From assembly GCA_021798575.1 (NCBI GenBank), contig JAJZGI010000024.1, forward strand, positions 1 to 35,393: 35,393 nucleotides of DNA, written 5' to 3'. This DNA is from Pseudomonadota bacterium (lineage in GTDB: Bacteria > Pseudomonadota > Alphaproteobacteria > Acetobacterales > Acetobacteraceae). Position numbers and translations under genes: made by a program. Position 1 is the first letter of the stretch. The number at the start of each line of letters is the position of its first letter. Shown here in pieces: positions 26,829 to 35,281 of this stretch. Under the pieces are notes generated by a model. The model was not told the DNA's origin, searched no databases, and worked only from the letters and a program-made list of their open reading frames with translations.

Positions 26829-27548
26829 TCATACCGTCTCGCGCCAGATTCTGCGCTTGCTCGCGATGGCGATGATAGTGAGAAAAACCAGGAACAGCAC
26901 GGCGCGCAGGCCGACCTCATGGCGGGCATCCAGGTTGGGGTCGGCCGACCAGGCGAGGAACTCACTCACATCCGCGGCCTGCTGCGCCACGGTGGCGGAT
27001 TTGCCATCGGCGTAGGTAACGTCATCGGCCTTCAGCGGCGGCGGCATGGCGAGCTGCCCGCCGGGGTACGCGGTGTTGTAATAATAGGAGGGCAGCAGCG
27101 TCACGCCCGCCGGGGCGGGGGCGTAGCCGGTGAGCAGATGGTCAATATAGCGCGCTCCATGCGGGCGCTGCGCGGCGATGTCCGAGAGGTCCGGTGGCAC
27201 CGCGCCGCCAAAGGCACCAGCGGGGATCTTGGGCGCGGGGAACGTATCATTCAGCGTCGCCGGGGCGCCATTGGCTGTTTTCACGCCAGCCGCGATGCCG
27301 GCCACCTGGTCCGGCGTCAGGCCCAGCGCCTCCAGGTCACGGTAGTGCAGCGCCTTTGCCGTGTGGCAGCTCGCGCACACGGTCTCATACACGAGGAACC
27401 CGCGCTGGGCGGCGGCTTTGTCGGTGCTGCCCAGCAGCCCCTGGGACTGGAAGTGGAACGGGCTCAGCCGGTCGTGCGCCAGGGCGTTGCCGCCCAGCAG
27501 CGCCAGCAGGCCGGTGGCCAGCCATAATTTACCAAAAACCGGGCGCAT
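26829..27548 (-). CDS. petC: Cytochrome c1 of a bc1-type complex
   Basis: This is a 239-residue cytochrome c1. It has a signal peptide (1 to about 24, ending ALAH) and heme c motif CASCH (58-62). It also has PPDLS near 118, the YYYN...PGG segment and the axial ligand Met168 in AMPPPL. One C-terminal membrane anchor follows (about 213-230), then KRRIW. All features match working cytochrome c1 proteins, in contrast to its partners. The start ATG 27548 overlaps the petB stop (TAATG). The frame runs open further upstream, but that part only reads petB out of frame. It is the last gene of petA-petB-petC. Confidence 0.93.
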   Translation of the reverse strand: MRPVFGKLWLATGLLALLGGNALAHDRLSPFHFQSQGLLGSTDKAAAQRGFLVYETVCASCHTAKALHYRDLEALGLTPDQVAGIAAGVKTANGAPATLNDTFPAPKIPAGAFGGAVPPDLSDIAAQRPHGARYIDHLLTGYAPAPAGVTLLPSYYYNTAYPGGQLAMPPPLKADDVTYADGKSATVAQQAADVSEFLAWSADPNLDARHEVGLRAVLFLVFLTIIAIASKRRIWRETV

Positions 27549-28672
27549 TATTGGGCCTCCAGGGCGGTGACAATCGGGGTGAGCACCAGGAAGTGCAGGA
27601 AGTACCAGGCGCCGAAGACCACGACCAGAAGGCCGGACAACCCCCCCGCCGCGCCGCAGGCAGCCCAGCCCAGCCCCAGCACGTCCAGCGCCAGCACCCA
27701 GGTTAGCAGCCGCCACAGCCCGCCGGCACGCCGCCCAGGCCCGGAGCGGTCCAGCCAGGGCAGCGCCAGCAGCAGCACGAGGCCCGCGGCCAGCCCGAGT
27801 ATCCCGCCGTAGGTGCCATGAAACAGCGCGCTGAGCCCGGCGAGCGGTGCCAGATACCACGGCACGCCAGCGCCCGTCGCCAAGGCCAGCGGGCCACCCG
27901 GCACATTGTTCAGCGGGCTCTGCCCGAAGTGCGGATAAAAGAACAACAGGACGCAGCCGATGAGTGCGGACACCACGAGTGCGACGAAATATTGCGCGGT
28001 GTAGTAAGGGTGGAAGGCGACGCGCAGTGCCGGGGCGGGTAGCGGTGTTGCGGCTTTCTTCGCGCCATGGCGTAGCCACAGGATGAAAAATATGACCAGC
28101 GCCAGGGCGATATGCAGCACCAGCAGCCGCGCCAGCGTACCCGGCCCGTCCGGCCCACCAAAAAACCAGGTGCCGAGCGCGCCCAGCGCCCCAGGCAGCA
28201 GCATGGCCGCATTGGTGGCGTTCATCACGCTCCAGTAGCCAGCCGCGCCACCGGTGAGCGCAAAGCCGAGCCAGCCGACCAGTAGCAGGAGCGCGAACGC
28301 CACGATATCGAGCAGCCAGACGAGCTCGCCCGGCGCTCGGTAGCTGCGCGCCAGCATCCCGCGTAGCAGCAGCAAATAGGCCGCGGCGAACACCAGCGTC
28401 GTGCCGGTGGCGTGGAAGCCTTCGATCAGCCAGCCGTTATTCACCTCCCGTGCGATGAATTGGCGGGAGGCAAAGGCATCCGCCGGGTTGTAGTACACCG
28501 CCAGCACCAGCCCGGAGGCAGTGAGAAAGACGAGCCCGGCGGTGATGAGCCAGGGCAGAACGGCGAGATACGGCGCCTCGCGCGCCATGCTGGGGGTGGT
28601 CAGGCCCGCCCACCAGCCGCCCAGGCAAGGCATCCGGGAGGCCATCCAGGAGGGTTTCACGTCTGTATTCAT
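27548..28672 (-). CDS. petB: Divergent cytochrome b of a bc1-type complex, lacking heme bH ligands
   Basis: This 374-residue polytopic protein is clearly a cytochrome b homologue: GFHATG (His87), ARLLVLHIAL (His187), FHPYYT (221-225) and LPWLDRS near 304. His87 and His187 correspond to the heme bL ligands. The second ligand of each helix, normally 14 residues later, is absent: Leu101 and Arg201 stand there, so heme bH is not expected to bind normally. The Qo motif PEWY reads VPWY (270-273), so the catalytic Glu is Pro. The usual LPWGQ turn reads LTGGA (139-143). The gene is intact and 12 bases after petA. It is probably still a membrane partner of cytochrome c1, but not a normal quinol oxidase. 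Confidence 0.92.
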   Translation of the reverse strand: MNTDVKPSWMASRMPCLGGWWAGLTTPSMAREAPYLAVLPWLITAGLVFLTASGLVLAVYYNPADAFASRQFIAREVNNGWLIEGFHATGTTLVFAAAYLLLLRGMLARSYRAPGELVWLLDIVAFALLLLVGWLGFALTGGAAGYWSVMNATNAAMLLPGALGALGTWFFGGPDGPGTLARLLVLHIALALVIFFILWLRHGAKKAATPLPAPALRVAFHPYYTAQYFVALVVSALIGCVLLFFYPHFGQSPLNNVPGGPLALATGAGVPWYLAPLAGLSALFHGTYGGILGLAAGLVLLLALPWLDRSGPGRRAGGLWRLLTWVLALDVLGLGWAACGAAGGLSGLLVVVFGAWYFLHFLVLTPIVTALEAQ

Positions 28673-28684
28673 GGTTGCGAATCC

Positions 28685-29239
28685 TCAGAGGAACTGAATT
28701 TGCGCGGCGTCGAGGAACGTAAAGCGCGGGATGACGAGGTTTTTGCGCGCCGGGCCGCGGCGCACCCGCCCCAGCGGGTCATAGGCGCTGCCATCGCAAG
28801 GGGAGAGCCAGCCGTCATACGGCCCGCGTGGCTCGCCGGGGGTGTTGCCCTCCAGCGCGCAGGAGATGCCGGTGTTGAGTCCCACCACGACGACAAAATT
28901 GTCATAGCCAGGCTTCACGCGGCTTTTGAAGCGCGCCGGGTCCGGCAGGGAGCTCTGCACCAGGTTCCGGTTATCGGCGATCTGTTTGGCGGTGAGCCTG
29001 CGGATATAGATCGGCAACCCGGCCCATTGCACCGCGATGCCGGTGTTCTCGGCAACTCCGGCGACATTCACGATCATCTGGCCGCTGGCGTCGCTCTGCG
29101 CATCGGGGGCGAGCGCGTCGATCATCGGCCAGACCGTCGCGCCGAGTGCGATGGCACCGGCAGACGCGGTGAGAATGGTTAAAAAATCACGCCGGGAATG
29201 CTCGCCCGTTCCCATCGCCTGATCCGATGTTTCCGCCAT
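28685..29239 (-). CDS. petA: Rieske-fold protein lacking all four iron-sulfur ligands
   Basis: This 184-residue protein has the layout of the bc1 Rieske subunit. A twin-arginine SRRDFL start and a membrane anchor (about 22-42) are followed by a beta-rich domain. That domain ends DPLGRVRRGPARKNLVIP. Box I, normally CTHLGC, reads NTGISC (122-127). Box II, normally CPCHGS, reads SPCDGS (146-151). Thus both Cys and both His cluster ligands are replaced (Asn122, Gly124, Ser146, Asp149), while the two disulfide cysteines remain (Cys127, Cys148). ATG 29239 has GGAG 6 bases upstream. The gene is intact and first in the operon. It cannot hold a Rieske cluster in the usual way. Confidence 0.93.
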   Translation of the reverse strand: MAETSDQAMGTGEHSRRDFLTILTASAGAIALGATVWPMIDALAPDAQSDASGQMIVNVAGVAENTGIAVQWAGLPIYIRRLTAKQIADNRNLVQSSLPDPARFKSRVKPGYDNFVVVVGLNTGISCALEGNTPGEPRGPYDGWLSPCDGSAYDPLGRVRRGPARKNLVIPRFTFLDAAQIQFL

Positions 29240-29341
29240 TTCGTCTCCTGCCGCGCAATTCTTCCCACACACGCATGGCGGCAAGCTGAAAAAAATTCAA
29301 GAGGCGGGTGACGTGAGGCCGGACGCCGATTATTGTCGGGC

Positions 29342-30208
29342 ATGGATAAAATTCTTAATCCCCCGGCCCATGAGGCCCTGAAACCCGCCGCCGCCGCCTG
29401 GTTCGCCAGCCTGCGGGACCGGATCTGCGCCGAACTGGAGGCGCTGGAGGCACAGGCCGCCGTCCAGCCCGCACGCTTTGAACGAACGGCGTGGGAGCGG
29501 CCCGATGGCGGCGGCGGTGTAATGAACGTGCTGCGCGGCGAGTTGTTCGAGAAGGCGGGGGTGAACATCTCCGTCGTCAACGGCAAATTCTCGGCCGATT
29601 TCGCGCAGCAGATGCACGGCGCGGGCCACGGGGCGGAGCATTTCTGGGCGGCGGGGATCAGCCTGGTGGTCCATCCACGCTCCCCAAAAATACCGACGGT
29701 GCATATGAACACCCGGATGATCGTGACCACCAAGGGCTGGTTCGGCGGCGGCGGCGATCTGACACCCTTGCAGCCCGGAACACCCCAGGCAGCCGAGGAC
29801 GCGGCGTTTTTTCATGCCGCCTACAAGGCCGCCTGCGACAGGCACGATCCGAACTATTATCCAAGGTTCAAAAAATGGTGTGACGAATATTTCTTCCTGC
29901 CGCACCGGGGCGAGCCACGCGGCGCCGGCGGTATCTTCTACGACTATCTGGAGTCAGGCGACCCGGAGGCGGACTTCGCCTTCACCCGCGATGTGGGGGA
30001 GGCATTTCTGGCCGCCTATCCGGCCATCGTGCGTCGCCGCATGGGCGAAAGTTTCACGCCCGAGGAGCGCGAGGCCCAGCTCATCCGCCGCGGCCGTTAT
30101 GTGGAGTTCAACCTGCTCTACGACCGGGGCACGACCTTCGGCCTCAAGACCGGCGGCAATACCGAGGCGATCTTGATGTCCATGCCGCCGGAAGTGAAAT
30201 GGCCGTGA
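29342..30208 (+). CDS. hemF: Oxygen-dependent coproporphyrinogen III oxidase HemF
   Basis: This 288-residue enzyme oxidatively decarboxylates two propionates of coproporphyrinogen III in heme synthesis. The family segments are present: GGGGVMNVLRGELFEKAGVN, HMNTRM, WFGGGGDLTP, CDEYFFLPHRGEPRGAGGIFYD and RGRYVEFNLLYDRGTTFGL. Length and motifs are those of a working enzyme. ATG 29342 is preferred over an in-frame TTG at 29333. It is divergent from the petABC operon, with about 100 bases between the two starts. Linkage of heme synthesis with a cytochrome operon is plausible but not specific. Confidence 0.96.
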   Translation: MDKILNPPAHEALKPAAAAWFASLRDRICAELEALEAQAAVQPARFERTAWERPDGGGGVMNVLRGELFEKAGVNISVVNGKFSADFAQQMHGAGHGAEHFWAAGISLVVHPRSPKIPTVHMNTRMIVTTKGWFGGGGDLTPLQPGTPQAAEDAAFFHAAYKAACDRHDPNYYPRFKKWCDEYFFLPHRGEPRGAGGIFYDYLESGDPEADFAFTRDVGEAFLAAYPAIVRRRMGESFTPEEREAQLIRRGRYVEFNLLYDRGTTFGLKTGGNTEAILMSMPPEVKWP

Positions 30209-30224: not shown

Positions 30225-30542
30225 CTAATCGCCGTCGTCATCATCCCCGCGCGGGGCGTAATACACCGGCGGCGGCGCGTAATAAACCGGCGGCGGCGGT
30301 GCGTAATATACCGGCGGCGGCGGCGGGTAATATACCGGAGGCGGCGGATAATAGCCGCCACCGCCGTCACCGTGCCAACCACCGTCTCCGCCGTCACCAT
30401 GCCAGCCGCCATCGCCGCCGTCATGGTGCCAGCCGCCACCGTCACCGCCGCCATCGCCGTGCCAGTCCGCCAGCGCGGGGGCGGCGCTGAAGAGGGAGAT
30501 TCCAAGGATCGCGGCGCCGAGCGCCAATAGTTTCCGTTTCAT
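30225..30542 (-). CDS. Small secreted Gly/His/Trp and Tyr/Pro repeat protein
   Basis: This is a 105-residue protein with a clear signal peptide (1 to about 25, ending ALA). The mature part has two low-complexity blocks. The first is a Gly-Asp-Gly block with repeated GGWHGDG units (several His and Trp). The second has YYAPPPPV-type repeats, ending in an acidic tail. I do not recognise a family with a known function. The repeats suggest an unstructured periplasmic or surface protein, and the His/Asp pattern could bind metal ions. It is convergent with hemF, only 16 bases between the stops. Confidence 0.75.
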   Translation of the reverse strand: MKRKLLALGAAILGISLFSAAPALADWHGDGGGDGGGWHHDGGDGGWHGDGGDGGWHGDGGGGYYPPPPVYYPPPPPVYYAPPPPVYYAPPPVYYAPRGDDDDGD

Positions 30543-34428: not shown

Positions 34429-34831
34429 GGCGCAAAACTCCGAGGGGTAACGAAGATGTGAAGCGGCGGGCGCACCCGGCGATCATGATCCCCGGCTGGC
34501 CTCTGGCCTCCGGCCCATTCACCCATAACACGCCCTATCGCAAAATTCCTGGCGGGAACACGAAGTTCGCCGGCTTTTCCCCCGCCTGTCCGGCATCGCG
34601 GCGCCTGTCCGGGCGCGCTGATTTGTAATGTTCAAACTCGACCGGCAGCCTTTTTGGCATTTACAGAACATGGTTGAGTCATTAAAGTCATTTAATAAGA
34701 ATGACTAAAGTTGCATGATGAAGTGTTTCGCTAAAGGGCTGGGACCTGCGGCGAAAATAGCTCGCGGGCAATTTTACTGTTTTTCGTCGTGCAATGTCCC
34801 GGGTATCCGGGCTAATTTAGGGTGCTCTGCC
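34429..34831. other. Gene-free region upstream of the adhesin
   Basis: No convincing gene is seen. The left half is GC-rich with many short CGGCC/GGCC repeats, and the right half (from about 34620) is AT-rich. It includes the AGTCATT repeats listed separately. An open frame from ATG 34715 joins the adhesin frame, but the residues before 34832 do not look like part of a signal peptide. Confidence 0.5.
34677..34706 (+). promoter_or_regulatory. Three copies of AGTCATT (two direct, one inverted), operator-like
   Basis: AGTCATT occurs at 34677-34683 and 34686-34692. Its reverse complement AATGACT follows at 34700-34706. The last two form a perfect 7-bp inverted repeat around a 7-base loop. The cluster is AT-rich and about 125 bases upstream of the adhesin start, a natural place for a regulator binding site. 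Confidence 0.4.
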
Positions 34832-35281
34832 ATGGCCGCGAATGAACTGTCTCCCGCCTCTCTGCGGCTCCGCAAAGCGCTTCTGGGTGGCGTCTCCGCG
34901 CTCCCGCTGGCCTACGGCGCACTCGCCCCCCACGCGGCATTGGCAGGCCCCGGGCCAGCGACCTGCGCGCCGACGATCAACACATTTGCTGGCGGCCCCT
35001 ATACGCTGAGCGGTGCCTGCACGATCACGAGCGCCGGAAATATCCGCGGCACTACCGCATTAATTACATCAGCGGGCACAATCTCCTCGCTGACCAACAG
35101 CGGCACCATCAGTGCCACTCATCACGCCGTGGACAACCTCAACTCGACGATCACCACGCTGGACAATCTGGGCTTCATCTCCAGCAAAACCTTTGCAGCG
35201 ATTGATAACAACGGATCGATCGGCGCACTGACCAACAGTGGAACCATCGTGAGTACTAACATTGCTGTTTCTAGTGGATAA
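34832..35281 (+). pseudogene. Truncated surface adhesin / autotransporter passenger
   Basis: From ATG 34832 the product has a long signal-like start (basic residues, then a hydrophobic stretch ending about AALAG). It is followed by Thr/Ser/Gly/Asn-rich short repeats such as ITSAGTISSLTNSGTISAT and GSIGALTNSGTIVST. These are typical of beta-helical passengers of autotransporters and large repeat adhesins. The frame stops after about 149 residues, and no beta-barrel or export domain follows. The stop lies in sequence that looks like the end of an insertion element, so the gene is broken and not naturally short. Whether the rest continues beyond the element cannot be seen. Confidence 0.65.

Follow-up and report, generated by a model that had tools for sequence, protein, structure and literature searches.

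The petABC operon of the window, which here means the whole stretch of 35,393 nucleotides that was analysed, is best explained as an ancestral Acidocella-type cytochrome bc1 locus whose product has lost the Q cycle and now persists as a scaffold that probably serves cytochrome c1; taken as a whole, we give this reading slightly better than an even chance. The core of the finding is already known. Degli Esposti et al. (2023; PMC10715153) reported a 'deranged' bc1 complex of Acidocella, and according to the main text of that paper its Rieske-type subunit (ISP) is without three or four of the cluster ligands and keeps the disulfide Cys pair, its cytochrome b is without the histidines of heme bH, its cytochrome c1 is intact, and the same taxa carry cytochrome c oxidase along with quinol oxidases. 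All of these listed traits match the locus in the window, and the comparison with the main text has brought out no separating feature; from the combination of traits we infer that the host genus is Acidocella. The initial annotation, which held a clusterless Rieske subunit of this kind to be undescribed, had thus been anticipated for Acidocella in the main text of the 2023 paper.

What is added to the 2023 report is the purifying selection on the locus, the distribution of the constraint among its genes, the conserved ISP tip, and the relative G270, in which cytochrome b is already altered and the ISP retains every ligand. A further addition is the fixed replacement of the Qo-site Glu by Pro; the main text of PMC10715153 mentions neither PEWY nor the Qo site, and the replacement may be in its supplement. 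A bc1 complex that is stripped of its Q-cycle residues and yet kept under selection offers a natural system in which the roles of complex III beyond catalysis can be tested.

The petABC locus and its altered subunits

The ISP gene had been placed correctly at 28685-29239 by the initial annotation, to which the strand can now be added: the petA frame runs on the minus strand from 29239 to 28685 and encodes 184 aa without an internal stop. It stands on this strand with petB (27548-28672; altered cytochrome b, 374 aa; PF00033 at 76 bits, together with the motif comparison given below) and petC (26829-27548; cytochrome c1, 239 aa; PF02167 at 201 bits), the ATG of petC sharing one base with the petB stop. 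The divergent neighbour of petA is hemF, which encodes coproporphyrinogen III oxidase (29333-30208, plus strand; PF01218 at 335.5 bits). A hemF match is found in 12 of 13 petA stretches from the genus (one ends early at a contig end). The petA stretch of G270 has one too, as do 6/7 of the stretches examined from other relatives. The presence of hemF beside petABC in all these groups implies that petABC of the window occupies its ancestral locus and is neither a spare copy nor a duplicate. Between hemF and tRNA-Asn sits a gene (30225-30542, minus strand) for an exported-looking protein of 105 aa, rich in Gly, His and Asp, which carries HGDGG and YYPPPP repeats and has no Pfam match.

All four [2Fe-2S] ligands are replaced in the ISP of the window, as had been stated from the first reading. 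In the former box I (NTGISC, residues 122-127; 28859-28876, minus strand) and the former box II (SPCDGS, residues 146-151; 28787-28804, minus strand), N122, G124, S146 and D149 occupy the positions of the ligands Cys, His, Cys, and His, respectively, and an alignment with the ISPs of solved bc1 structures likewise places these residues on the ligands of the two boxes. The disulfide cysteines C127 and C148 are retained. So are the twin-arginine start and membrane anchor (residues 15-38; 29126-29197, minus strand; PF10399 at 43.6 bits over residues 11-46), the SxYD stretch and the C-terminal segment, in a frame that is intact. Descent from a bc1 ISP is indicated by the TIGR01416 family profile, which matches the protein with 124.1 bits (above the cut-off of 97.4), by the position in petABC beside hemF, and by the presence of both disulfide Cys. 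A functional Rieske protein has two Cys and two His ligands and the Pfam Rieske domain PF00355, and the window ISP departs from it on both counts: PF00355 is unlisted for this protein at E values up to 1, and a PF00355 search of its own genome gave four matches, none of them at the petA locus. From these residues the window ISP is predicted, with near certainty, to be without a [2Fe-2S] cluster. An AlphaFold2 model of the window ISP, made with 20 Pelagibacteraceae/Pelagibacterales relatives, was poor (mean pLDDT 46).

Catalytic residues are missing from the cytochrome b too, a point on which the initial annotation is silent. Its motifs were compared between 35 genus copies and 21 canonical relatives, and each scored residue is kept in 21/21 of the latter. 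In the genus, the Glu of the Qo-site motif PEWY is replaced by Pro in 35/35 copies (Pro271 in the window; 27860-27862, minus strand), the Qi-side His and the PWGQ motif are each lost in 35/35, and no copy (0/35) has both ligands of heme bH, H111 being kept in 9 copies and H212 in 10. Residue numbers such as H111 follow what we take to be Rhodobacter numbering, and the roles of the motifs are assumed likewise. In the window, the heme bH ligands are replaced by Leu101 in helix B (28370-28372) and Arg201 in helix D (28070-28072), and the heme bL ligands His87 in helix B (28412-28414) and His187 in helix D (28112-28114) are kept, all on the minus strand. Throughout the genus, one heme bL His is kept in 35/35 copies, the other in 34/35, and the pair in 34/35. 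Locus L018 of genome G020 (77% complete, 6% contamination) holds the sole genus cytochrome b, among the 35, with a heme bL His replaced (by Leu).

Cytochrome c1 keeps its heme motif (CASCH; 27363-27377, minus strand). Its CxxCH is kept in 34/34 copies, one further copy being lost to a contig end, and 14/14 full-length copies retain the Met-Pro position. Of the features expected in a working bc1 complex, the bL pair and the c1 heme are thus present, and the bH pair, the Qo Glu and the Qi His are each found in none of the 35. On this pattern of residues, the complex would very probably perform no Q-cycle turnover.

The canonical alphaproteobacterial bc1 complex has an ISP that shares TIGR01416, the twin-arginine anchor, the disulfide pair, the C-terminal segment, the operon order and hemF with the locus described here; the cluster ligands, the Qo Glu and the bH pair are present there, whereas they are lost here. 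The bc1 complex of Acidiphilium, as described in the main text of PMC10715153, has a cytochrome b without the bH histidines, as is the case here, but its ISP gene is missing altogether.

Distribution in the genus and an intermediate relative

The genus is represented by 38 genomes in the collection, from which 35 ISP copies were aligned; these include the partial copy of locus L089, which covers both boxes. Eight longer stretches from genomes already counted (L115-L121 and L124) were excluded from the genus counts. The window ISP has a match in its own genome and in 34 of the 37 other genomes of the genus. The three genus genomes that are devoid of a match are 77-85% complete, and a match is present in 23/23 of those with at least 90% completeness and at most 5% contamination.

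Position 122 is Asn and position 149 is Asp in 35/35 genus copies, position 124 is Gly in 29 and Ala in 6, and position 146 is split between Cys (23 copies) and Ser (12 copies). Both disulfide cysteines, 127 and 148, are present in 35/35. Three ligands are lost in every genus copy, and position 146 is the variable fourth. The loss of all four ligands, as initially described, therefore holds for the window ISP and does not extend to the genus as a rule, Cys146 being kept in 23/35; the same kind of substitution, which an alignment had been proposed to reveal among relatives, does run through the genus in 35/35 copies.

Outside the genus, the four ligands are intact in 25/25 rows of the ISP alignment and in 25/25 loci read from a wider family search, the two sets of 25 overlapping in some genomes. 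The wider search was made with the genus profile and gave matches in 218 of 249 genomes, the ligands being read in the 25 non-genus loci and the remaining matches being taken by bit score alone. The five sampled genus genomes scored at least 290 bits, and the best other genome 205.9 bits. On the cytochrome b tree, one change accounts for the ligand loss, whereas position 146 requires at least 6 changes between Cys and Ser.

An intermediate relative is genome G270 of genus g136 (L206/L222, contig C73). Unlike the genus, the ISP of its petABC keeps the four ligands (CPHRGC and CPCHGA), and the Ser and Tyr of its SxYD stretch are replaced by Ala and Phe. Its cytochrome b resembles that of the genus in having PPWY, in lacking PWGQ and both bH His, and in retaining the two bL His. 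The other two g136 genomes in the wider search (G172 and G228) gave no ISP match. On the cytochrome b tree, G270 (L206) is sister to the genus with a support of 99, on a long branch and by a quick method. The combination of an altered cytochrome b with intact ISP ligands suggests that the loss of the cytochrome b chemistry preceded that of the cluster. A further implication is that the bH ligands can be lost without the ISP ligands being lost too, and one sentence in the main text of PMC10715153 has to be qualified accordingly. The same main text mentions one intermediate Acidisoma taxon, and G270 is perhaps that taxon.

Selection on the three genes

The three genes petA, petB and petC are all under purifying selection. 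Omega was computed by the Nei-Gojobori method, so that the values below come from a simple method applied to sequences of high GC, to pairs that are non-independent and, for c1, to many copies cut at the locus ends. The partial L089 copy was dropped from the omega and entropy sets, leaving 34 genus copies. The canonical rows numbered 15 for the close-pair omega and the tip entropy and 21 for omega by dS bin; the long-ISP rows L090, L092, L097 and L100 were excluded from the latter set.

Among genus pairs, the four closest (dS about 0.08-0.20) have omega values of 0.08-0.16 for petA, 0.08-0.18 for petB and 0.02-0.07 for petC, and a fifth pair has higher values (0.36, 0.29 and 0.23, respectively). 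The dN/dS comparison that had been suggested for the ISP thus points to purifying selection in the four closest pairs. Together with the genus alignment and the motifs, these values bear out the initial view of a Rieske subunit that is clusterless and selectively retained in a full petABC operon.

At dS 0.4-1.2, the omega of petA in the genus is similar to or lower than that of the canonical rows (0.31-0.36 vs 0.34-0.44), that of petB is higher (0.43-0.47 vs 0.28-0.31), and that of petC is lower (0.23-0.31 vs 0.42-0.54). At dS 0.05-0.4 the order for petB is reversed (0.220 in 13 genus pairs vs 0.388 in 4 canonical pairs), and this lowest bin has canonical pairs for petB alone and none for petA or petC. 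The constraint seems to have shifted from cytochrome b to cytochrome c1, two of the three dS bins showing a more relaxed cytochrome b.

Within the ISP, the tip is less variable than the rest of the head (entropy of 0.59 vs 1.03 bits in 34 genus copies, permutation p 0.003), and its omega is 0.257 vs 0.325 for the rest of the head (81 pairs). The contrast is stronger in the canonical ISPs (0.23 vs 0.96 bits), and hence the tip in the genus is conserved, less strictly than it is with a cluster. The conserved tip thus also preserves, in weaker form, the earlier pattern. The constraint on c1 and on the ISP tip fits several roles.

Respiratory setting and possible roles of the complex

A second, canonical petABC in the same genome, the presence of which had been raised as a question with the initial annotation, was not found; the genome has one PF00033 cytochrome b and one ISP match. 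Similarly, a search for cytochrome bd oxidase in this genome gave no match, and there was no sign of alternative complex III, the NrfD search being without a match. The genome carries COX2, COX1, a CtaB-like UbiA, COX3 and SURF1 in a cluster, with the CuA residues of COX2 recognised by eye, and a second COX1 homologue with a longer frame, which is read as bo3 from its length only. Typing of aa3 and bo3 by gene content covers this one genome, for its aa3 set. Across the genus, a COX1 match of more than 500 bits, read as aa3-type, is present in 30/38 genomes, and bd oxidase in 30/38. Of the better genomes defined above by completeness and contamination, 23/23 have at least one of bd oxidase and a long-frame COX1 taken to be bo3, and quinol can therefore be oxidised without bc1. 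Three of these 23 genomes (G015, G016 and G036) have, besides the long-frame COX1, partial COX1 matches only.

In the reading that we prefer, quinol would be oxidised by bo3 or bd oxidases instead of bc1, and the ISP would be a cofactor-free structural subunit with its head docked on the periplasmic face. The complex would then be a membrane scaffold that holds cytochrome c1, and cytochrome c1 may relay electrons to the aa3-type cytochrome c oxidase or be its partner in assembly. A structural scaffold of some kind is likely. That cytochrome c1 would be the point of this scaffold is a more tentative proposition, to which we attach somewhat less than an even chance. The c1/aa3 scaffold is favoured because in most comparisons c1 is under tighter constraint, and cytochrome b under looser constraint, than their canonical counterparts. 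The retention of heme bL counts against it, as the need for this heme is not obvious in a pure holder of c1.

Degli Esposti et al. (2023) proposed, in the main text of PMC10715153, that the altered bc1 complex is kept because it forms a supercomplex with Complex I and so stabilises it. In agreement with this proposal, 34/38 genus genomes have NuoD, either complete or fragmented; however, Complex I is common in bacteria, which makes the co-occurrence weak, and the conservation of the c1 heme site, of heme bL and of the ISP tip is unexplained by stabilisation alone. We regard the proposal as rather unlikely.

A loss of Complex I in the genome of the window (G000, listed as 96.4% complete) was considered as a test, since searches for NuoD and NuoH gave weak paralogues only and no full-length copy there, and it was dropped. 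Lon is close to NuoD in three relatives (Pfam confirmed Lon and NuoD in two of the three), and Lon equally has no real match in this genome (best 17.4 bits); the absence of the NuoD neighbour too makes an assembly gap likely. A single cluster of the same genome (G000:C54:49264-53241) encodes one relative each of NuoH and NuoD (89.6 and 77 bits), perhaps parts of a hydrogenase-4-type complex, and many genus genomes give weak NuoD-like matches over this range of the profile.

Rather than a leftover, the complex might be a rebuilt machine, a two-heme (bL and c1) scaffold on the periplasmic side that would act as a quinol-independent electron port or assembly platform for aa3. Cytochrome b would have lost its Qo and bH chemistry first, as in G270, and the ISP tip would then have been re-fixed with Asn and Asp, its head being permanently docked. 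We consider this reading unlikely.

A new electron path, in which quinol or another donor would pass electrons to bL and c1 and the ISP would carry a different cofactor or use Cys127-Cys148 as a redox disulfide, is improbable. N122, D149 and both Cys are invariant (35/35), the bL histidines are conserved and c1 is intact, all of which speaks for such a path; but neither the Qo motifs PWGQ and PEWY nor the bH pair survive, position 146 toggles between Cys and Ser at least six times on the tree, unlike a metal ligand, and other quinol oxidases are available in 23/23 of the better genomes. The disulfide cysteines are invariant in the genus, but they are kept in the aligned canonical relatives too, and in canonical Rieske proteins the Cys pair is structural; their invariance speaks neither for nor against the redox disulfide suggested in the initial annotation.

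A recent pseudogene or a sequencing error, for which the ligand loss itself and nothing more would speak, has practically no chance of being the explanation and is ruled out by the same state in 35/35 concordant genus copies with open frames, by the low omega in close pairs and by the single origin on the tree.

Near the contig end, the window also holds a gene (34715-35281, plus strand) for an exported-looking protein rich in Ser, Thr and Asn, which has no Pfam match and is autotransporter-like by eye.
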